Positions 4,527-63,864 of a stretch of 64,000 nucleotides of DNA are shown here, piece by piece. The stretch spans positions 1 through 64,000 of IMG/VR virus record IMGVR_UViG_3300042566_001028. One strand, written 5' to 3'. Source of the DNA: a virus. A program made the position numbers and the translations under genes. The notes under the pieces are model-generated. The model was not told the origin of the DNA and searched no databases. It saw only the letters and a program-made list of their open reading frames with translations. How positions within the stretch are numbered: the first letter of the stretch is position 1; each line of letters opens with the position of its first letter.

Positions 4527-4841
4527 ATGGCAAAGTCAGTAGACAAATTAGCAAAACCATTAGGAGACAGAGTTCTTTTAACGGAATTAGAAGCAGAGGC
4601 ATCAAAAACTGCCGGTGGTATCATTATCCCAGATAGTGCAAAATCGGAAGATGTAAAAAGAGCAAAAGTAGAAGCCGTAGGTGACGGAATCTATACACAA
4701 AGTGGAGTAGCAATTCCAATGAGTGTAAAAGTAGGTGATGAAGTAATCCTTCCACCATATCATCAAGGAGTAGAAATTAAAGTAGGTGGTAACAAATACA
4801 TCTTACTTAGAGAATCAGAATTATTAATGGTTATTAGATAA
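4527..4841 (+). CDS. groES: Co-chaperonin GroES
   Basis: The 104-aa protein has all GroES landmarks: PLGDRVLL near the N-terminus, a mobile loop region KTAGGIIIPDSA at about residues 26-37 that binds GroEL, and the C-terminal KYILLRESELLMVI strand. Length is normal for the family (95-100 aa plus a few N-terminal residues). A full GroEL is encoded 35 kb downstream (39520), so the phage carries a complete chaperonin pair. T4 gp31 replaces host GroES for capsid folding; here the sequence is much closer to bacterial GroES than gp31 is. Confidence 0.96.
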   Translation: MAKSVDKLAKPLGDRVLLTELEAEASKTAGGIIIPDSAKSEDVKRAKVEAVGDGIYTQSGVAIPMSVKVGDEVILPPYHQGVEIKVGGNKYILLRESELLMVIR

Positions 4842-34538: not shown

Positions 34539-34949
34539 ATGGCTTATAGCGAAAAAGTAATTGACCATTATCAAAATCCCAAAAATGTAGGAACTTTGGA
34601 CAAATCAAAATCCAATGTAGGAACAGGTTTAGTGGGTGCACCGGAATGTGGTGATGTAATGAGACTACAAATAGAAGTAAACGACAATATCATAACCGAT
34701 GCAAAGTTTAAAACATTTGGTTGTGGGAGTGCTATCGCAGCATCTTCATTGGCAACGGAGTGGTTGAAAGGTATGACATTAGAAGAAGCAGTTAAAATGG
34801 ATAATATGGAGTTAGTAGAGGAATTAAATTTACCTCCAGTTAAAATTCACTGTTCAGTATTAGCAGAAGATGCTATCAAATCTGCGATAAATGATTATAG
34901 ACAAAAACAAGGATTAGAACAATTGGTGTTTGAAGAATCACATATATAA
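34539..34949 (+). CDS. iscU: Fe-S cluster scaffold IscU/NifU-N-like
   Basis: A 136-aa IscU-type scaffold. The N-terminus is YSEKVIDHYQNPKNVG; the three cluster-binding Cys are present at 37 (APECGD, with Asp39), 62 (FGCGSA) and 105 (IHCSVLAE). All key residues being intact implies a working scaffold. It would accept sulfide from the host IscS/SufS, as no cysteine desulfurase is encoded nearby. Ferredoxin and IscA follow in the same operon, a compact Fe-S assembly set that is rare in phages. Confidence 0.94.
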   Translation: MAYSEKVIDHYQNPKNVGTLDKSKSNVGTGLVGAPECGDVMRLQIEVNDNIITDAKFKTFGCGSAIAASSLATEWLKGMTLEEAVKMDNMELVEELNLPPVKIHCSVLAEDAIKSAINDYRQKQGLEQLVFEESHI

Positions 34950-34959
34950 AAAATAAAGT

Positions 34960-35268
34960 ATGAGTTATATTATTGGAAAGAGTTGTGTTGATTGTATGGA
35001 TACTGCATGTGCAAGTGTGTGTCCGGTAGATTGTATTCATGGCCCGATTGATATAGATGGTTCGGGTGGTGAAATTGAAAGAGATGGTAGAGAGGCATTT
35101 CCAGGTGGGCAAATGTATATCAATCCCGATACTTGTATAAATTGTGGAGCATGTGTTCCAGAATGTCCTGTTTCTGCAATTTATGAAGATGAGGATTTAG
35201 CAATTAAAGCCGGTGATGAAGTATCGGTGCATAAGAATTACGAATTTTTCGGACTAAAATACGCATAA
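34960..35268 (+). CDS. fdxA: Ferredoxin, 7Fe/8Fe FdxA type
   Basis: A 102-aa ferredoxin. First site CVDCMDTACASVCP (Cys 9, 12, 17, 21, 25), the C-x2-C-x4-C-x3-CPVDC pattern of Azotobacter-type 7Fe ferredoxins; second site CINCGACVPECP (Cys 60, 63, 66, 70). It is an electron carrier, and in this operon probably donates electrons for cluster assembly or to phage enzymes such as the Cas4-like nuclease; the isc system normally uses a 2Fe-2S ferredoxin, so this is a different pairing. The stop overlaps the iscA start. Confidence 0.93.
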   Translation: MSYIIGKSCVDCMDTACASVCPVDCIHGPIDIDGSGGEIERDGREAFPGGQMYINPDTCINCGACVPECPVSAIYEDEDLAIKAGDEVSVHKNYEFFGLKYA

Positions 35269-35591
35269 TGGTAACAGTATCAGAAGGTGCAGCAAAAAAA
35301 TTAAACTCACTCATCGAAGAAAGTGGGTTCAAAACTCCATTTGTTAGAGTGGCGGTTAAAGGTGGTGGGTGTAGTGGATTGTCATACGACCTTTCATTTG
35401 ATACCGACCAACAAACAGGAGATACTCTTGCAGAAAATAATGGAGTAAAAATCTTAATAGACAACAAATCGTTACTATATCTTTTCGGAACTGAATTGGA
35501 TTTTTCAGACGGACTTAATGGTAAGGGATTCCAATTTATAAATCCCAATGCATCCCGAACCTGTGGATGTGGTGAAAGTTTTGCACTATAA
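35268..35591 (+). CDS. iscA: A-type Fe-S carrier IscA/ErpA
   Basis: A 107-aa A-type carrier with VTVSEGAAKKL, the first Cys at residue 35 (VKGGGCSGLSY) and the C-terminal pair CGCGESF at Cys 99 and 101. All three ligands are present. A-type carriers pass clusters from the scaffold to client proteins. HesB/IscA genes alone are known in some marine phages; the complete IscU-ferredoxin-IscA trio is what is unusual here. Confidence 0.95.
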   Translation: MVTVSEGAAKKLNSLIEESGFKTPFVRVAVKGGGCSGLSYDLSFDTDQQTGDTLAENNGVKILIDNKSLLYLFGTELDFSDGLNGKGFQFINPNASRTCGCGESFAL

Positions 35592-36058: not shown

Positions 36059-36093
36059 AGGGTGGAACATATCGTCTCCACCCTTTATTTTTT
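36059..36093 (+). terminator. Rho-independent terminator
   Basis: An 8-bp perfect GC-rich stem (AGGGTGGA at 36059-36066, TCCACCCT at 36077-36084) is followed by a T-rich run. It lies between the histone-like gene and the TonB receptor and rules out an in-frame start at 36062 for the receptor. Confidence 0.85.
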
Positions 36094-36112
36094 AACAAAA
36101 AACAAAACAAAC

Positions 36113-39100
36113 ATGAAAAAAACGATTCTATCGTTGTTCCTTTCAGTATCAGTTTTAATGGGATTCGGTCAAGTTACCACATCCTCTATTTCTGGTGTAG
36201 TTAAGAACGAAAAACAAGAAGTGTTGGTAGGTGCTACAATACATGTAGTTCACACTCCAACAGGTACAAGTTACAAAACCGTAACAAATAAGAATGGTGT
36301 TTATGCATTACCTGCTGTAAGAGTGGGTGGCCCATATACATTACATGCTTCATTTGTCGGATTTAGAAAAGGTGAAGAAACGGATGTAAACACTCAATTG
36401 GGTGTAACTACAAACGTGAACTTTACATTAGTGGATGAGAAGACTGCTCTTAAAGAAGTAGTTGTGACTGGAACAAAATCTGGATTATTCTCAAAAGAAA
36501 AGACAGGTGCAGCACAACAATTTACTCGTAGAGAATTACAAACTATTCCAATTACAGGAGCAAGAACAATCAATGGTATTACTAAATACAATCCATTCGG
36601 TGATGGTTCTTCATTTGGAGCACAAGATTCTCGTTTAAACAACTTCACAATTGATGGTTCTCAATTTAATAACAACTTCGGGTTAGGTTCATCTGCACAA
36701 GCGGGTGGTAGAACTGGTGCAAGTGCTATTTCATTGGATGCGATTGACCAATTACAGGTGAATGTTGCCCCATTTGATATCCGTCAGTCTGGGTTTACTG
36801 GTGCTGGTATCAATGCAGTAACAAGAAGTGGTACAAATGAAGTGGAAGGTAGTGTTTATCAAACACAAAGAGATAATAGTTCTCGTTATGTTGGTGATAA
36901 TGCTAAAGGAACAAAAGTAACTGCATCTAAATTTGATGAGAAGGTACAAGGTTTCCGTTTAGGGGCACCAATTATTAAGAACAAATTATTTATCTTTGGT
37001 AACTACGAATCAATTGAAAGAACTGAGCCAGGTACAACTTGGATTTCAACAGGTTCTCCATTGGCAGGTTCACAAGTAAGTAGACCAACTTTCCAACAAT
37101 TGACTGACCTTTCTAAATTTATGAAAGATAAGTTCAATTATGAAACAGGTCCATTTGAAGGTTATTCTAACACAAACACATCTAACAAATTTTTAGTTCG
37201 TGTTGATTGGAATATTAACGATAAGAACAAATTAACTGCTCGTTATGTGTTCCATAATTCTGAAGCACAAATCGGAATTTCAAATTCAAATTCGGCGGGT
37301 GCGGGAAGTAGAACACAAAACATCAACGCAATGTCTTTCCAAAATAGTGGATATACTATTCAGGATAATACTCGTTCAGCAGTATTGGAATTAAACTCTA
37401 AGATTTCAAATACATTATACAATAACTTAATTGTATCGTATGACAAACAAATTGAGAACAGAGGTTATATGAGCCAAATGTTCCCAACGATTGATATCTT
37501 ACAATCTACCCCAACTCTTACATCAGTAGGATTTGACCCATTCACTCCGGGTAACAAATTAGATTACAATACTTTTAATGTAACTAACAACTTAACAAAA
37601 TATGCAGGTAAGCATACTTTGGTTGGTGGTTTTAACTTCCAAAAGTATCAATCAAATAACTTATTTTTCCCCGCATCTAATGGTGTTTACATCTTTAATA
37701 GTTTAAATGATTTCTACACTGCAGCTAATCAATCATTAGCAAATGGTGGAAGACCATCTACATTTGCACCTGCAAGATTTCAATTCCGTTACTCGGCATT
37801 ACCAGGAGCAATTGAACCAATGCAAACTTTAAAATCAGATAGATTAGATTTATACTTACAAGATGAATATAACGCAACTAGAGATTTGAAATTAACATTT
37901 GGTGCAAGAGTAAACATCATTGGTTTTGAAAATACGGCATTAGAAAACAAAGCAGTAACTGCAATGACTTTTGCAAATGGTGAAAAATTAAATACAGGTC
38001 TAATGCCTAAAACACAAGTTCTTTTTGAACCAAGATTAGGTTTCAACTACGACTTGAAAGGACAAAAGAAAACACAATTTAGAGGTGGTACTGGTGTATT
38101 CACAGGTAGACCTCCTTATGTATTCTTATCTAACCAAATCGGTAACAATGGTGTGTTGACAGGATTTATTGATGTGACAGGAGCAGCGGCAGCCCAATAT
38201 GGTTTCACTGCCGACCCTAACAAATATTTCATCCCATCAACTCCACAATTGCCTTCAACATTTGACTTAGCATTAACTGACCCTAACTACAAATTCCCAC
38301 AAGTTTGGAAAACAAATTTGGCAGTAGACCAAAAGTTACCATTCTTCGGATTAGTAGCAAGTGCTGAATATCTTTATAATAAAACACTTAACGCAGTTCA
38401 TTACTACGAAGCTAATTTAAGAGCACCTGTTGGAACTTTGGGTGGCGTAGATAACAGACCTCGTTTCGGTGGTACGGATGCAACTGTGAGAGTAAATAAC
38501 AATGTAAGTAGAGCAATAGTTCTTACAAATAGAGATGGTGCATATCACGAATCATTGACATTGAAATTAGAGAAACCATATCAAAAAGGTTTCTGGGGTT
38601 CATTCGCTTGGACAACTGCTAACTCAAAAGACTTTATGAGTGCGGGTTCAATCGCTAGTGGTAGTTGGCAATCAGCTTTATCAGTAGCAGGTAACAACGA
38701 TTTAGGATTATCGTTTGCCGACCAATTTGTTAAAAACAGATTCGTAGGTTTATTAGGATATAGAATTGAATATGGTTCTAAATATGGTGGAGCTACTACA
38801 TTTACATTAGGTTATGTAGGACAACAAGGTAATCCATATTCTTATGTTGTAACAAGTAGTTCAACTGCAGATTTCAATGGAGATAGAGTATATAATAACG
38901 ATTTAATTTTCGTTCCAATGAAAGGTTCGGATATGAAATTTACTAGTTTTACTTCAGGTGGTAAAACATTTACTGAAGCAGAACAACAAGCTGCATTTGA
39001 TAAGTTTATCGGACAAGATAAATACTTATCAACTCGTAGAGGTCAATATGCTGAAAGAAATGGTGGTTTATTACCTTACTTACATAGATTTGATTTATCG

Positions 39101-39403
39101 GTAGCACAAGATGTATTTGTTAAAATTGGTGGAAAGAGAAATGCTTTCCAAATCAGAGCAGATATCTTAAACTTCGGTAATATGATTGACAATAAGTTTG
39201 GTGTTTCACAAAGAGCTACGGCACCTCAAATTTTGAACTTTGTAAGCAGAGATGCAGTTACAAATGTTCCAACATTTAGATTGGCAACACAAAGATTAAC
39301 AGATGGTTCTACTATTTTAGCTAGAGATAGTTATCAGTACAACTCATCAGTATTTGATGTATGGTCTGCACAATTAGGTATCCGTTACATCTTCGGTAAA
39401 TAA
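36113..39403 (+). CDS. TonB-dependent receptor, Oar-like, 1096 aa
   Basis: The start is ATG 36113, giving a clear signal peptide (KKTILSLFLSVSVLMGFG, cleaved near Gln). A carboxypeptidase-regulatory-like beta domain (SISGVVKNEKQEVLVGATI, about 20-105) is followed by a plug (LKEVVVTGTK, DGSQFNNNFG) and a large 22-strand-type barrel ending in a strand GIRYIFGK. It matches Oar-type receptors of Bacteroidota. A receptor of this size in a phage is very unusual; it may be acquired from a host, act in superinfection exclusion or feed the infected cell. No stop or frameshift is seen, so it is probably functional. Confidence 0.93.
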   Translation: MKKTILSLFLSVSVLMGFGQVTTSSISGVVKNEKQEVLVGATIHVVHTPTGTSYKTVTNKNGVYALPAVRVGGPYTLHASFVGFRKGEETDVNTQLGVTTNVNFTLVDEKTALKEVVVTGTKSGLFSKEKTGAAQQFTRRELQTIPITGARTINGITKYNPFGDGSSFGAQDSRLNNFTIDGSQFNNNFGLGSSAQAGGRTGASAISLDAIDQLQVNVAPFDIRQSGFTGAGINAVTRSGTNEVEGSVYQTQRDNSSRYVGDNAKGTKVTASKFDEKVQGFRLGAPIIKNKLFIFGNYESIERTEPGTTWISTGSPLAGSQVSRPTFQQLTDLSKFMKDKFNYETGPFEGYSNTNTSNKFLVRVDWNINDKNKLTARYVFHNSEAQIGISNSNSAGAGSRTQNINAMSFQNSGYTIQDNTRSAVLELNSKISNTLYNNLIVSYDKQIENRGYMSQMFPTIDILQSTPTLTSVGFDPFTPGNKLDYNTFNVTNNLTKYAGKHTLVGGFNFQKYQSNNLFFPASNGVYIFNSLNDFYTAANQSLANGGRPSTFAPARFQFRYSALPGAIEPMQTLKSDRLDLYLQDEYNATRDLKLTFGARVNIIGFENTALENKAVTAMTFANGEKLNTGLMPKTQVLFEPRLGFNYDLKGQKKTQFRGGTGVFTGRPPYVFLSNQIGNNGVLTGFIDVTGAAAAQYGFTADPNKYFIPSTPQLPSTFDLALTDPNYKFPQVWKTNLAVDQKLPFFGLVASAEYLYNKTLNAVHYYEANLRAPVGTLGGVDNRPRFGGTDATVRVNNNVSRAIVLTNRDGAYHESLTLKLEKPYQKGFWGSFAWTTANSKDFMSAGSIASGSWQSALSVAGNNDLGLSFADQFVKNRFVGLLGYRIEYGSKYGGATTFTLGYVGQQGNPYSYVVTSSSTADFNGDRVYNNDLIFVPMKGSDMKFTSFTSGGKTFTEAEQQAAFDKFIGQDKYLSTRRGQYAERNGGLLPYLHRFDLSVAQDVFVKIGGKRNAFQIRADILNFGNMIDNKFGVSQRATAPQILNFVSRDAVTNVPTFRLATQRLTDGSTILARDSYQYNSSVFDVWSAQLGIRYIFGK

Positions 39404-39516: not shown

Positions 39517-41139
<1,623 letters not shown>

Positions 41140-59785: not shown

Positions 59786-59816
59786 TTTGGTAATTCGGGA
59801 TATTTATCGTATATTT
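59786..59816 (+). promoter_or_regulatory. Phage promoter upstream of tmRNA operon
   Basis: TTTGG at 59786-59790 and TATATTT at 59810-59816, spacer 19 nt. It drives the 63-aa gene at 59872 and probably the tmRNA that begins 2 nt after that gene. Confidence 0.82.
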
Positions 59817-59871: not shown

Positions 59872-60063
59872 ATGGAAAATCAAAAATATTGTATAATTGA
59901 TGTAACTTTAGATATCAATAATCACATTGGAGTAGTAGATTTATCTTTAGAAGAAGCACAACAATGGATAATGGACAATCAAACTCAATTAGAAACTCCA
60001 GTAACCATAGGTGAAACAACTTTCCCTGCTCAATTCATATATAAATCATATCCTTTAGTTTAA
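59872..60063 (+). CDS. Hypothetical protein, 63 aa
   Basis: A short acidic protein (DVTLDINNHIGVVDLSLEEAQQWIMDNQTQLETPVTIG) of unknown family. Its stop is 2 nt before the first base of the tmRNA, so the two are likely on one primary transcript that must be processed. That linkage is notable, but no functional link is established. Confidence 0.7.
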   Translation: MENQKYCIIDVTLDINNHIGVVDLSLEEAQQWIMDNQTQLETPVTIGETTFPAQFIYKSYPLV

Positions 60064-60065
60064 TT

Positions 60066-60429
60066 GGGGATGCTTTGGAATTGATTGCTATGTAAATGGT
60101 AATATCACATGTAGACAAAGTAAGAATGTCTTTAAATACTTACAAAACAATAACTGACGAAAAGTCAACTATGACTTACAACGACTTAATGGCGTTTGTA
60201 GGTATGGATTACGCTGTAGCAGCCTAACCAATCCCGCACACATCGTGGGACTTTAAATAGAATGTGAAATTGAGTGGAAACTAACTGAACTCAAAATCGA
60301 GTTAGAATATTGATTATAATGAAATAATAAAACTTATATATTTGTCAGTTGTGAATAACTGAATAAACATGTGAGATGCTGATATTATTGATTTCTAGTA
60401 AGACACGAGTTCGACTCTCGTCATCTCCA
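60066..60429 (+). ncRNA. ssrA: tmRNA (ssrA)
   Basis: The 5' end GGGGATG pairs with CATCTCC (60422-60428) to form the acceptor, including the G-U at the third pair that marks alanine identity. The T-arm ACGAG/CTCGT with loop TTCGACT is at the 3' end, and the 5' side has GGAATTGAT in place of the D-like loop. An open tag ends DYAVAA followed by TAA at 60225-60227; GTA just before GGT (60201) suggests resume at Gly, giving GMDYAVAA, though a GCG start is possible. A helix with CCCGCAC/GTGGG follows the tag. The length, 364 nt, is normal for tmRNA. Confidence 0.92.
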
Positions 60430-60530: not shown

Positions 60531-60602
60531 CGCAGGATAGAGCAGAGGTAGCTCACGTGGCTCATAACCACAAGGTCGGAGGTTCGAATCCTTCTCCTGC
60601 AA
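60531..60602 (+). tRNA. tRNA-fMet (CAT), initiator
   Basis: The acceptor CGCAGGA/TCCTGCA has the C1-A72 mismatch that defines bacterial initiator tRNA. Anticodon CAT sits in the loop CTCATAA. Of the three consecutive G-C pairs normally closing the anticodon stem, one is T29-A41. The D-loop is short. It has its own promoter. Phage-encoded initiator tRNA is unusual. Confidence 0.9.
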
Positions 60603-60606
60603 CAAA

Positions 60607-60850: not shown

Positions 60851-61930
60851 ACCGAAAGAAAGTTCTTTAAAAGATTGAAAATATTTTACATAGTGAGTTC
60901 GTCTCACATAGTAAACAACCGCCGCCTATGGTGGTTAAATAAACTACGAAAGTAGGATAAAGTGGATGTATTAAGTGATACATCTGCGGCTACTCTCCCC
61001 GTAAGGAGAGACTAGCTTGAGTAGGCAAGTGGGATATCATTCTCGCTAAAGTAGTTGAGGGTAACACTTTAGGCGAATAGTGGGAATGGTTGGGGTAGTA
61101 TAGATACTCCGACTGAGTTGGGAACAACAATAAGAATAACCCATAGAATATCAGTAAGAAGTGTAGACTTAATCCCTCTACATCATTGCGGTATTCAGTT
61201 TCAAAGTTATCTTAACATCAAGCCATCCGAAAGGACGCAAGATAAGATAGTGTACAAGTGGTGTTGTTACCATCCTTATATAGAGTTTGCCAAAACCTAT
61301 ATTTGAAGATGACTTAAAAAACCGCAGTAGGGATATTGCATCGGGTAGTTTAGTATTCTCTCGTTCAAAAGATGAGGGAGCTAGTGGTAAACCACTACCT
61401 GAATAATTCTATAAACTAAAACTCAATTTTGAATAGCATTTTCAAAAAATACAATTTAAAAATTAAGCTTAAGTGTTTACCAGTTGCAGATGAAAGGTGT
61501 GTACATAGTTAAGAGTTGTTCTTAGCCACGATACCTCCGCAAGAGGTCTGTGATTCTACCGAAAGGTTTCTAATTCCGCAAGAACTAATCAGGCTGCGAG
61601 GCTTGAAGAAAATGATTAAGTAGAGAGTAATCGGCAACTTAAAGACTGATAGTCTAAAATCATCCACATTGAATTGGTACTACTCAAAAGGTAGTGGAAA
61701 CGGAAGGAAACAAATAATCTTTCTAAAGCTGGTTCACCAAATAGAGTATTCTCATCTATTTATAAGCGGTTTTAGTGTAATAGTAGCACTCCTAGCATTC
61801 CAGTTAGGGAGAGGTGGGGCAGAACCATTTTACCGCTCAATACGAAGATTTTCGTGGTCTACCTTTTTGGCTGTTTCTTACTCAACAGTCGTTTCGTTTA
61901 AATTAGACCTAAAAGATAGAACGATATAAT
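60851..61930 (+). ncRNA. Large multi-hairpin non-coding RNA (about 1.1 kb), GOLLD/ROOL-like candidate
   Basis: No credible protein frame covers this region, yet it is packed with perfect hairpins: 60893-60907, 60917-60936, 60944-60955 (GAAA loop), 60965-60984, 60993-61010, 61092-61110, 61207-61245 (outer stem TTATCTT/AAGATAA around a TCC-GAAA-GGA loop), 61382-61397, 61533-61547, 61558-61567 (GAAA), 61679-61695, 61842-61855 and 61869-61890. Tandem promoters precede it and it lies in a tRNA array. GOLLD and ROOL RNAs, giant structured RNAs of phages, sit in just such places. The 3' end is approximate; it may run on to the terminator at 62317. Class membership is unverified. Confidence 0.7.
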
Positions 61931-62321: not shown

Positions 62322-62403
62322 GGGAGTATCGCATAGTGGCAATTGCGGCTGACTGTAAATCAGCTCTCTTTCGAGTTCGGTGGTTCGAGTCCATCTACTC
62401 TCA
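62322..62403 (+). tRNA. tRNA-Tyr (GTA)
   Basis: Acceptor GGGAGTA/TACTCTC (one G-U), anticodon loop CTGTAAA, T-loop TTCGAGT and a longer variable region as expected for bacterial tRNA-Tyr. Encoded 3' end is A-CA rather than CCA. Confidence 0.9.
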
Positions 62404-62409
62404 CAAAAT

Positions 62410-62483
62410 TCTCACTTAGCTCAGTTGGTTAGAGCGTCGCACTGTTAATGCGAAAGTCCTAAGTTCAAGTCTTAGAGTGAGAG
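62410..62483 (+). tRNA. tRNA-Asn (GTT)
   Basis: Acceptor TCTCACT/AGTGAGA, D-arm GCTC/GAGC, anticodon stem TCGCA/TGCGA with loop CTGTTAA, T-arm CTAAG/CTTAG. Discriminator G is followed by CA. Confidence 0.92.
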
Positions 62484-62492
62484 CAAACAAAA

Positions 62493-62565
62493 GCGGATGT
62501 AGCTCAATTGGTAGAGTGCGTTCCTTCCAAGTACGAAGTTGCAGGTTCGAGCCCTGTCATCCGCT
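62493..62565 (+). tRNA. tRNA-Gly (TCC)
   Basis: Acceptor GCGGATG/CATCCGC is perfect; anticodon loop CTTCCAA gives TCC; T-arm GCAGG/CCTGT. One mismatch in the anticodon stem (T-T). Discriminator T, then CA. Confidence 0.9.
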
Positions 62566-62645
62566 CAAACGGTTACCAATCCGGAACACGCCTGGAAGTT
62601 TAGTGTATTAGCACACCAGGAAATGGTGATAACAAAATTGGAAAT
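62566..62645 (+). other. 80-nt spacer with a hairpin
   Basis: Between tRNA-Gly and tRNA-Gln is a stem CCTGG/CCAGG (62591-62620) enclosing GTG/CAC. It looks partly tRNA-like (GTTTAGTG..TTAGCAC) but lacks a T-arm, so it may be a decayed tRNA or a processing signal. Confidence 0.35.
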
Positions 62646-62716
62646 TGTTCGGTGGTGTAACGGTAGCACAATTGTTTTTGGTACAATTAGTTCTGGTTCG
62701 AATCCAGCCCGAATAA
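62646..62716 (+). tRNA. tRNA-Gln (TTG)
   Basis: Acceptor TGTTCGG/CCGAATA (with one G-U), anticodon stem ATTGT/ACAAT with loop TTTTGGT giving TTG, T-loop TTCGAAT. One T-arm pair is mismatched (T49-C65). Confidence 0.88.
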
Positions 62717-62721
62717 CATAT

Positions 62722-62790
62722 GCGTGGTAGGCTATGGCAGCCAATTGGTCTCCAAAACCAAAGGAGAGGGTTCAATTCCTTCACTGCGTG
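62722..62790 (+). tRNA. tRNA-Trp (CCA)
   Basis: Anticodon stem TTGGT/ACCAA with loop CTCCAAA gives CCA. The acceptor GCGTGGT/ACTGCGT pairs only with several G-U. There is just one base between acceptor and a 3-bp D-stem (GGC/GCC), so the gene is short (69 nt). T-loop is TTCAATT. Confidence 0.8.
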
Positions 62791-62795
62791 CAATT

Positions 62796-62868
62796 AGTTC
62801 TATGGTGTAATTGGATAGCACGAAACACTACGGATGTTTTAGTTTGGGTTCGATTCCTAATAGGACTA
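62796..62868 (+). tRNA. tRNA-Arg (ACG)
   Basis: Acceptor AGTTCTA/TAGGACT, anticodon stem AAACA/TGTTT with loop CTACGGA giving ACG (A34 would be edited to inosine by host TadA), T-loop TTCGATT, discriminator A then CA. Confidence 0.9.
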
Positions 62869-62874
62869 CAATAT

Positions 62875-62944
62875 GGTCAGTTTGGTCGTGGAGGCCGGTG
62901 GGACTGCAAATCTTACGGAGTTGGTTCGATTCCAACATTGACCT
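62875..62944 (+). tRNA. tRNA-Cys (GCA)
   Basis: Acceptor GGTCAGT/ATTGACC, anticodon loop CTGCAAA giving GCA, T-arm GTTGG/CCAAC with loop TTCGATT. Several G-U pairs in the anticodon stem. Discriminator T fits cysteine identity. Confidence 0.88.
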
Positions 62945-62949
62945 CAAAT

Positions 62950-63021
62950 GGTGTTTGAAGCATTAAGGTGATGCGTCGGTTTGTGGAGCCGGATAAGACG
63001 GGTCGGTACCGTCCTTACACC
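62950..63021 (+). tRNA. tRNA-His (GTG)
   Basis: The extra G at the 5' end (G-1, 62950) pairs with C73, the hallmark of tRNA-His; anticodon loop TTGTGGA gives GTG. The acceptor has two T-T mismatches. The T-loop reads GTCGGTA instead of TTCRA, an odd substitution. CCA appears to be encoded here (CCA after C73). Confidence 0.82.
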
Positions 63022-63026
63022 CCAAC

Positions 63027-63100
63027 ACCCGTATGGCGGAATTGGCATACGCAGTGGTCTTAGAAGCCATAAGTTACAGGTTCGACTCCTGTTACGGGTA
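63027..63100 (+). tRNA. tRNA-Leu (TAG) with short variable region
   Basis: Acceptor ACCCGTA/TACGGGT, Leu-type D-arm (GCGGAATTGG...CGC), anticodon stem GTGGT/GCCAT with loop CTTAGAA giving TAG (reads CUA and other CUN). The variable region is only about 5 nt, whereas leucine tRNAs normally have a long arm. Confidence 0.82.
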
Positions 63101-63106
63101 CAAATG

Positions 63107-63137
63107 TTTGGTAAAGTAAATTATTATTCGTATATTT
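63107..63137 (+). promoter_or_regulatory. Phage promoter inside the tRNA cluster
   Basis: TTTGG at 63107-63111 and TATATTT at 63131-63137, spacer 19 nt. It drives element E2 and the tRNAs from Glu onward. Confidence 0.85.
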
Positions 63138-63149
63138 AATTTATAAGGT

Positions 63150-63227
63150 TGATTGGGAACAAAAGTAGCCCGCTAAAACGAGTTAGTGAAAATCTAATAC
63201 GCTACTACCGGTTAGTAAAGCCAATCA
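63150..63227 (+). ncRNA. Structured RNA element E2
   Basis: TGATTGG (63150-63156) pairs with CCAATCA (63221-63227); AGTAGC/GCTACT (63164-63169, 63201-63206) and TTAG/CTAA lie inside. It resembles E1 at 60607-60692 (AAAAC-GAG..TAGTGA and TAAAGCC near the 3' stem). It is the first product of the promoter at 63107. Class unknown. Confidence 0.5.
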
Positions 63228-63270
63228 TAAAAGTAATCGTCCACGCACCCATCTTTTACTTTCCTTAAAT

Positions 63271-63342
63271 GCTCAGTTCGACTAAGGGTTAGGTCACATC
63301 CCTTTCACGGATGTAATACGGGTTCGAATCCCGTACTGAGTA
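63271..63342 (+). tRNA. tRNA-Glu (TTC)
   Basis: Acceptor GCTCAGT/ACTGAGT, anticodon stem CATCC/GGATG with loop CTTTCAC giving TTC, T-arm ACGGG/CCCGT. Discriminator A then CA. Confidence 0.9.
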
Positions 63343-63347
63343 CAATA

Positions 63348-63420
63348 GCCCGAGTAGCTCAGCTGGTAGAGCAACTGATTTGTAATCAGTAGGTCGTAAG
63401 TTCGATTCTTATCTTGGGCT
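63348..63420 (+). tRNA. tRNA-Thr (TGT)
   Basis: Acceptor GCCCGAG/CTTGGGC, D-arm GCTC/GAGC, anticodon stem ACTGA/TCAGT with loop TTTGTAA giving TGT, T-loop TTCGATT. Confidence 0.93.
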
Positions 63421-63424
63421 CAAT

Positions 63425-63498
63425 GGATGGGTAGTTCAGTTGGTTAGAATGTCGGCTTGTCACGCCGAAGGTCGCGGGTTCGAGTCCCGTCCCGTCCG
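63425..63498 (+). tRNA. tRNA-Asp (GTC)
   Basis: Acceptor GGATGGG/CCCGTCC, anticodon stem TCGGC/GCCGA with loop TTGTCAC giving GTC, T-arm GCGGG/CCCGT. Discriminator G fits aspartate. Confidence 0.93.
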
Positions 63499-63503
63499 CA
63501 ATG

Positions 63504-63575
63504 GGTCTGTTAGTTAAATGGATATAACTTCTCACTTCTAATGAGATGTTCGTGGTTCGATTCCACGACGGACTA
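63504..63575 (+). tRNA. tRNA-Arg (TCT)
   Basis: Acceptor GGTCTGT/ACGGACT (G-U pairs), D-arm GTTA/TAAC, anticodon stem TCTCA/TGAGA with loop CTTCTAA giving TCT, T-arm CGTGG/CCACG. Confidence 0.9.
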
Positions 63576-63581
63576 CAATAT

Positions 63582-63688
63582 GCCGGAGTGGCGGAATGAT
63601 AGTATGTACAACTATTAGACGTTCCCTTCCTAGGTGGGTGGTGTATCCGAAATGGACATCGTGTGAGTAACCAATCTCTCCTCCGGCA
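63582..63688 (+). other. Aberrant tRNA-Leu-like RNA, 107 nt
   Basis: The ends pair perfectly (GCCGGAG/CTCCGGC) with A73, the D-region begins GCGGAAT as in tRNA-Leu, and a long variable arm (about 63641-63659) is present. But the D-loop holds an inserted hairpin ATAGT/ACTAT, the anticodon region (CCC...GGG around TTCCTAGGT) gives no clean 7-nt loop, and the T-loop is TAACCAAT without TTCRA. It is either a decaying tRNA or a tRNA-shaped RNA with another role. Confidence 0.5.
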
Positions 63689-63780
63689 CCTTATGGGCTT
63701 TGGTGATACAGCCATAAAGAGAGACAGATGTTTCTCATTCACTAAAATAGGTAGGTGACTCCACACCTGCTTATTTTCTT
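63689..63780 (+). other. Spacer with hairpins and possible terminator (63744-63777)
   Basis: Contains TTATGG/CCATAA (63692-63718 region), and a 14-bp stem at 63744-63757 with 63764-63777 that ends in a T-run (some G-U). The latter may be a terminator or a processing hairpin in the tRNA transcript. Confidence 0.5.
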
Positions 63781-63782
63781 TC

Positions 63783-63856
63783 GGGAATGTAGCTCAGTTG
63801 GTTAGAGCAAAAAACTCATAATTTTGAGGTCACAGGTTCGAGCCCTGTCTTTCCCA
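63783..63856 (+). tRNA. tRNA-Met or tRNA-Ile2 (CAT)
   Basis: Acceptor GGGAATG/CTTTCCC (one T-T mismatch), D-arm GCTC/GAGC, anticodon loop CTCATAA, T-arm ACAGG/CCTGT. G1-C72 excludes an initiator. Whether C34 becomes lysidine (Ile) cannot be told from sequence alone. Confidence 0.85.
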
Positions 63857-63864
63857 CAAAAAGA

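Follow-up and report, generated by a model that had tools for sequence, protein, structure and literature searches.

A phage-encoded tmRNA with a long tag conserved among phage tmRNA genes

Once charged with alanine, tmRNA goes into stalled ribosomes with SmpB and adds a tag, in which a C-terminal AxAA is a signal for ClpXP. Phage tmRNAs have long been listed, and the tag family described here bears on whether they bring more than an added dose of tmRNA. The gene lies in a window of 64,000 nucleotides, the whole stretch of DNA that was analyzed (positions 1 to 64,000 of IMG/VR record IMGVR_UViG_3300042566_001028). This window comes from a virus record of 78,280 bases with T4-like replication genes. 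The nearest isolate relative of the family B DNA polymerase is that of Microcystis phage Mel-JY01 (49% identity), and a RecA-like recombinase and a clamp loader were recognized from their translations.

The host is likely a member of the Bacteroidota, judging from several features read in the sequence: an outer membrane protein with CarbopepD_reg_2 and OMP_b-brl_4 domains, signal peptides ending in FGQ or NAQ, the form of the promoter-like motif described below, and the SmpB of the related phage G022, which is closest to that of Prevotella. In the window, 36062-39403 encodes a TonB/SusC-like outer membrane protein with a carboxypeptidase regulatory-like domain, which could alter the host surface during infection. 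A full GroEL is found at 39520-41139 (833 bits to TIGR02348) and a GroES-like small ORF, named from its sequence, at 4527-4841. Genes for IscU, a ferredoxin-like protein and Fe-S_biosyn stand in a row at 34539-35591 as a phage iron-sulfur assembly cluster.

The tmRNA gene and its neighborhood

The initial annotation placed a phage-encoded tmRNA at 60066-60429, and these coordinates proved exact. ARAGORN calls the gene, and Rfam model RF00023 scores it at 75.8 bits (E 1.2e-27), end-to-end over the full model and well above the gathering score of 47 bits, so the covariance-model check proposed with the annotation was passed. By both programs the gene is full-length and in standard, non-permuted order, with 364 nt; this order rules out a permuted two-piece tmRNA, and the complete gene rules out a phage tmRNA reduced to the tRNA-like domain, as in DS6A. 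Weak 76-nt matches in relatives G010 and G011 are tRNA-Ala. The tRNA-like domain, H2, PK1, PK2 and tag frame are all present (Table 1), and 60066-60429 is confirmed as an intact tmRNA.

Table 1 Features of the tmRNA locus, in window coordinates.
Feature	Position	Strand	Basis or remark
Promoter-like motif TTTGG-N16-TCGTATATT, upstream of ORF and tmRNA	59786..59815	+	
63-codon ORF, function unassigned, stop 2 nt before tmRNA	59872..60063	+	Sequence
Phage tmRNA (ssrA) gene, acceptor stem to discriminator A	60066..60429	+	ARAGORN, Rfam RF00023, covariation
Acceptor stem 5' half GGGGATG, pairs with 60422-60428 (CATCTCC); G3-U70, alanine identity pair	60066..60072	+	
Helix H2 5' side, pairs with 60367-60401	60085..60112	+	
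Pseudoknot PK1 (AGACA/TGTCT and GTAAG/CTTAC)	60113..60143	+	Alignment register imperfect
Tag reading frame, resume codon GAC, DEKSTMTYNDLMAFVGMDYAVAA, stop TAA	60156..60227	+	
Helix H5, crossed by tag frame	60177..60200	+	
Pseudoknot PK2 (TCCCGC/GTGGGA and CACA/TGTG)	60232..60266	+	
T-arm ACGAG-TTCGACT-CTCGT, 5 pairs, 4 with compensatory changes	60405..60421	+	
tRNA-Met, conserved neighbor of tmRNA	60531..60603	+	ARAGORN
GOLLD RNA, between tRNA-Met and tRNA array	61341..61758	+	Rfam RF02032
Array of 13 tRNA genes	62322..63857	+	ARAGORN

The tRNA-like ends with a G3-U pair, the T-arm and the TAA-terminated tag frame read by the initial annotation are all there, and compensatory changes in relatives back the acceptor stem, T-arm, H2, H5, PK1 and PK2. 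All 114 distinct full-length relatives among the matches listed have G3-U70 and the discriminator A; the purpose-written gene finder demanded a 5' GGG and the discriminator A and left the U opposite G3 free. G3-U70 is consistent with alanine charging of the phage tmRNA. Other acceptor pairs co-vary (for example GGGGATG/CATCTCC, GGGGGTG/CACCTCC, GGGCCTG/CAGGTCC). The 3' end reads CATCTCC-A followed by CAA, so the CCA must be added post-transcriptionally. Across the tag family, the three bases past the discriminator are CCA in 40 of 114 of the matches listed, and the rest are mostly CAA or CTA.

Alignment of 12 relatives showed 93.2% of cells paired over the acceptor stem, T-arm, H2, H5, PK1 and PK2, against 85.6% in shuffled alignments. 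Double-sided changes were seen at 18 pairs against 10.6 in shuffles, and none of 500 shuffles scored as high. Sliding the partner by 1-3 columns lowered pairing to 31-46%. This control is biased in favor of the structure, which was drawn on the window's own sequence; the double-sided changes are independent of that. The second stem of PK1 is paired in 67% of cells, and the pseudoknot score exceeds the shuffles. RNAalifold on 58 divergent, very gappy sequences recovered only the acceptor stem, T-arm and short helices.

The gene sits in a conserved order of tmRNA, tRNA-Met, GOLLD and tRNA array, which is kept in 7 of 11 related loci. The GOLLD RNA scores 280.8 bits against a gathering score of 150, and GOLLD env-38 was originally found downstream of a Met-tRNA (PMC12286853). 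The 63-codon ORF, which has no Pfam match, is presumably co-transcribed with the tmRNA. The motif TTTGG-N16-TCGTATATT occurs with fixed spacing in 8 copies in the window, with 0.01 expected (plus strand, at 1377, 39462, 44943, 59786, 60490, 60711, 60814 and 63107). Five of these lie within 59.8-63.2 kb, and the motif clusters before the tmRNA, tRNA-Met and GOLLD. The copies, of TTTG...TATATT form, are probable phage promoters of the Bacteroidota type.

tmRNA genes are frequent attachment sites of temperate phages (PMC12656738), and the gene could in principle be a fragment left by prophage integration, or the contig a chimera with bacterial sequence. We give this explanation almost no weight. 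The gene is full-length, its flanks are T4-like phage genes, and no integrase was recognized among the window translations. The locus order also recurs in phage contigs from many metagenomes, and with the same setting in many independent contigs, the assembly join that the initial annotation had named as a way to overturn its call fails.

A long tag under selection across many phages

ARAGORN reads a tag of 23 residues, DEKSTMTYNDLMAFVGMDYAVAA. The tag is indeed the phage's own, and the DYAVAA quoted earlier as its end is the last six residues. More than 110 distinct phage tmRNA genes, a lower bound, make up the family to which it belongs. Relatives were recruited in three ways: by the neighboring protein gene, by the tail of the tag, and by its N-terminal half. 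The tail-recruited set consists of the matches listed, and the true size of the family exceeds the count given. Family tags have 23-26 residues (examples among the matches listed are DEMSTMTFEDLMAFVGADYAVAA, DVELSTMTFEDAMAFVGADYAVAA and AEELSSFTFEDAMAFVGADYAVAA) and share the core S(T/S)(M/F/W)T(F/Y)(E/D/N)D(A/L)M(A/S)FVGAD(Y/L)A(V/L)AA. The records that carry them range from short fragments up to 289 kb. In some relatives ARAGORN misplaces the tag (VKADLEHLIV..., APVSLMGL), with the conserved frame still there. Some tmRNAs of about 465 nt (L254, L252, L360 and similar) have extra sequence past the tag, and here the ARAGORN tag VKADLEHLIV... is probably wrong.

The tag family was absent from isolate phages and plasmids by tblastn, and no mention of the tag strings was found in the literature searched. 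Distant blastn of the tmRNA gene against isolate phages returned short pieces only, mainly the 3' T-arm end. A scan of viral contigs for short tags of the Bacteroidota style, with guessed downstream sequence, found none. The view that few phages encode a tmRNA was an understatement, as many are present in public records; phage tmRNA as such is already known, and the long conserved tag family appears to be undescribed in the sources searched. Some relatives, a number of them fragments, have no tmRNA (G006, G007, G008 and Mel-JY01), so the gene may be dispensable in some phages.

The comparison with host ssrA that had been called for was made with three Bacteroidota chromosomes, all Bacteroidales, filed as plasmid records. 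The tags are GENNYALAA in Parabacteroides distasonis, GETNYALAA in Bacteroides finegoldii and GNENYALAA in Phocaeicola massiliensis. These have 9 residues against 23 in the phage and are of a different type, with the reservation that these three may not represent the host's lineage. The resume context is nearly the same (AATAACTGACGAA in the phage, AATTAACTGGCGAA in Parabacteroides), and the phage tag is readable in three parts: a start and an end that resemble the host's (DE vs GE and DYAVAA vs NYALAA) and, between them, an insert about 14 residues long; automatic alignment puts the insert at a slightly different place. In the Rfam consensus a tag of ordinary length stops roughly at H5, whereas the phage frame continues through it. 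The VAA end, singled out by the initial annotation against the usual LAA, is a genuine difference but the least remarkable part of the tag, since VAA, LAA and IAA interchange among related phages; the insert is the real difference. Bacterial tags ending in VAA also exist, in Caulobacter and marine cyanobacteria.

These comparisons bear on one possible origin for the gene, in which the phage captured a host ssrA, the tag mirrors that of the real host in another Bacteroidota lineage, and the phage merely raises the tmRNA dose. The overall fold and the resume region are of Bacteroidota type, and only three host tags, all from Bacteroidales, were compared. Against this, those three tags lack the insert, and the family spans many phage contigs with coherent variation. 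The M-variant tail ATGGAYTAYGCNGTNGCNGCNTAA, the one variant scanned, turned up in none of the tmRNAs of 84,980 bacterial and archaeal genomes; its single match, in Methylotenera, has an upstream in-frame reading unlike the tag. We regard a captured host tag as improbable.

Selection on the tag was measured with each half tested in a set recruited otherwise, as the search patterns fix part of the tag. The whole 21-codon core gave a dN/dS of 0.05 among 6 alleles recruited by the neighboring gene. Codons 1-11 of this core, which lie outside the tail pattern, gave 0.245 in the tail-recruited set (among the matches listed). Recruitment by the N-terminal half gave 0.162 over codons 9-23 as a whole, with 0.105 in codons 9-16 and 0.243 in codons 17-23. 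With only 20-odd codons, pairwise dN/dS is a coarse measure in which shared ancestry enters repeatedly, but the three recruitments agree. The other two frames showed no synonymous excess (pS 0.27/pN 0.26 and pS 0.16/pN 0.28), and in the neighboring-gene set summed entropy was 0.0 at second and 6.54 at third codon positions. Purifying selection on the tag codons is confined to the tag frame, and it acts more strongly on the inner module than on the terminal AxAA.

Since H5 (columns 117-121 with 136-140) lies inside the tag frame and four of its five pairs are invariant, the tag could instead be conserved for the RNA helix rather than for the peptide. In 5 of 12 sequences, however, the fifth pair is broken, so the conservation is not explained by RNA pairing alone. 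The conserved S, T, T and GxDxAxAA fall outside the helix, and variation falls at third codon positions with a synonymous excess confined to the tag frame. Selection for H5 in place of the peptide is very improbable. Selection is strongest in the segment that is absent from the bacterial tags checked, which indicates that the phage benefits from the part of the tag specific to it, a question that can now be tested.

A model for the phage tag

We think it quite probable that the gene yields a functional phage tmRNA with a two-part tag, in which a C-terminal protease signal of host type is joined to a phage-specific module that probably binds a partner. The tmRNA would be made from a phage promoter together with the small ORF, trimmed, given its CCA and charged with alanine via G3-U70. 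Host SmpB would then load it onto ribosomes stalled on broken mRNA, where translation would restart at GAC and append the 23 residues. The host-like DYAVAA most likely passes the product to ClpXP, and we take breakdown by the host's ClpXP as the default. The inner module, STMTYNDLMAFVG, may dock the tagged protein on a partner, which could be the protease itself or an adaptor from host or phage. Such docking would speed up the degradation of phage-tagged products, or send them along a different route, relative to host-tagged ones, in line with the earlier suggestion that peptides carrying the phage tag may be directed differently.

The pattern T-F/Y-E/D-D-x-M-x-F-V-G appears to resemble a short, capped, partner-binding helix. 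In E. coli, a longer sequence ahead of ALAA improves adaptor-free degradation by ClpXP (PMC8512704), so even a non-specific spacer in the phage tag would help. All 38 distinct alleles recruited by the N-terminal half carry FVG, which argues that the inner module is more than a mere spacer. We also consider, as a possibility we stop short of favoring, that STxTFEDxMxFVG is a second, phage-specific signal with a dedicated partner that reroutes phage-tagged polypeptides. This would be a private trans-translation channel, and the same promoter-like motif upstream of the GOLLD RNA and tRNA array raises the possibility that it is coordinated with them.

The initial annotation proposed that the phage rescues ribosomes under its own control. 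This has partial support: a phage-type promoter motif lies upstream, but most of these phages would need host SmpB and host alanyl-tRNA synthetase. No SmpB was found in one set of related virus records, nor in 14 of 15 further ones, counts that are provisional because many records are fragments. Most phages of the family would presumably rely on host SmpB and host proteases. The exception is G022 (L346; tag DNTSTFTFEDAMAFVGGEVAIAA), in which SmpB stands in a row with CCA-adding-enzyme-like and TROVE-like proteins, the last two named from sequence only; in addition to the tmRNA, this row is a possible RNA quality-control island. ClpP was found in two relatives without a tmRNA and in none of the tmRNA-bearing ones, an equally provisional absence given the fragments, so no phage-encoded protease partner was identified.

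The terminal AA is conserved in 33 of the 38 alleles; the wider tail-pattern set, with an AA end built into its search pattern, is uninformative on this point. Relatives L409, L395, L398, L386, L387 and L410 have lost the terminal AA and kept FVG. The five alleles without AA (endings LAIA, EATFA and DYE) weaken the claim that ClpXP degradation is an essential outcome. They could signify that degradation is not the main role of the tag, with the module sequestering or relocating fragments, or acting as an effector peptide, and the C-terminus secondary. The lower dN/dS of the inner module points the same way. However, most alleles keep AA and DYAVAA is close to the host NYALAA, and we consider this reading unlikely, if somewhat less so than a captured host tag. 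The two-part tag, with degradation as its default, remains our preferred reading.

Comparison with known tmRNAs

Phage-encoded tmRNAs are already known from Bxz1, phage G, Streptomyces phages, Crassvirales and Cellulophaga phages (PMC4131195, PMC7162821, PMC8776804, PMC12656738). The mycobacteriophage Bxz1 group, Wildcat and Bacillus phage G (PMC4131195) also have full-length phage tmRNAs, in unrelated hosts. Streptomyces phages Jay2Jay and Elmer carry tags with an ALAA end (ANSNVAFALAA and ANSNVASAYALAA), but these have 11-13 residues and no inner module. Huge phages such as Lak (PMC7162821) encode tmRNA together with SmpB and translation genes, and here one member, G022, has SmpB as well, whereas most lack it; the Lak-B5 tag, read by eye, is the short DDEIEFRMAA.

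Among phages of Bacteroidota, Cellulophaga phage Calle_1 (PMC8776804) has a long non-host tag, AQIEANMEAVNAILNLEVAVGV by ARAGORN, with no resemblance to the tag described here. Crassvirales and Chryseobacterium phage MA9V-3 also carry tmRNAs with non-host tags (GNFYVTDYTRIAA, GNVIDINKYVAKLEVAA), but ARAGORN reads these genes (L367-L370, L372, L374) as permuted, with tags of 13-17 residues and other sequence. Non-host tags in Bacteroidota phages are readable from deposited records. The bacterial tmRNA of the Bacteroidota type, as in Parabacteroides (GENNYALAA), has in common with the phage gene the G3-U70 tRNA-like domain, H2, PK1, H5, PK2, the resume context and a C-terminal YAxAA. The tmRNA described here differs from it in being phage-encoded, in its resume codon GAC, and in a frame that runs through H5 to give a tag of 23-26 rather than 9 residues with a conserved inner module.
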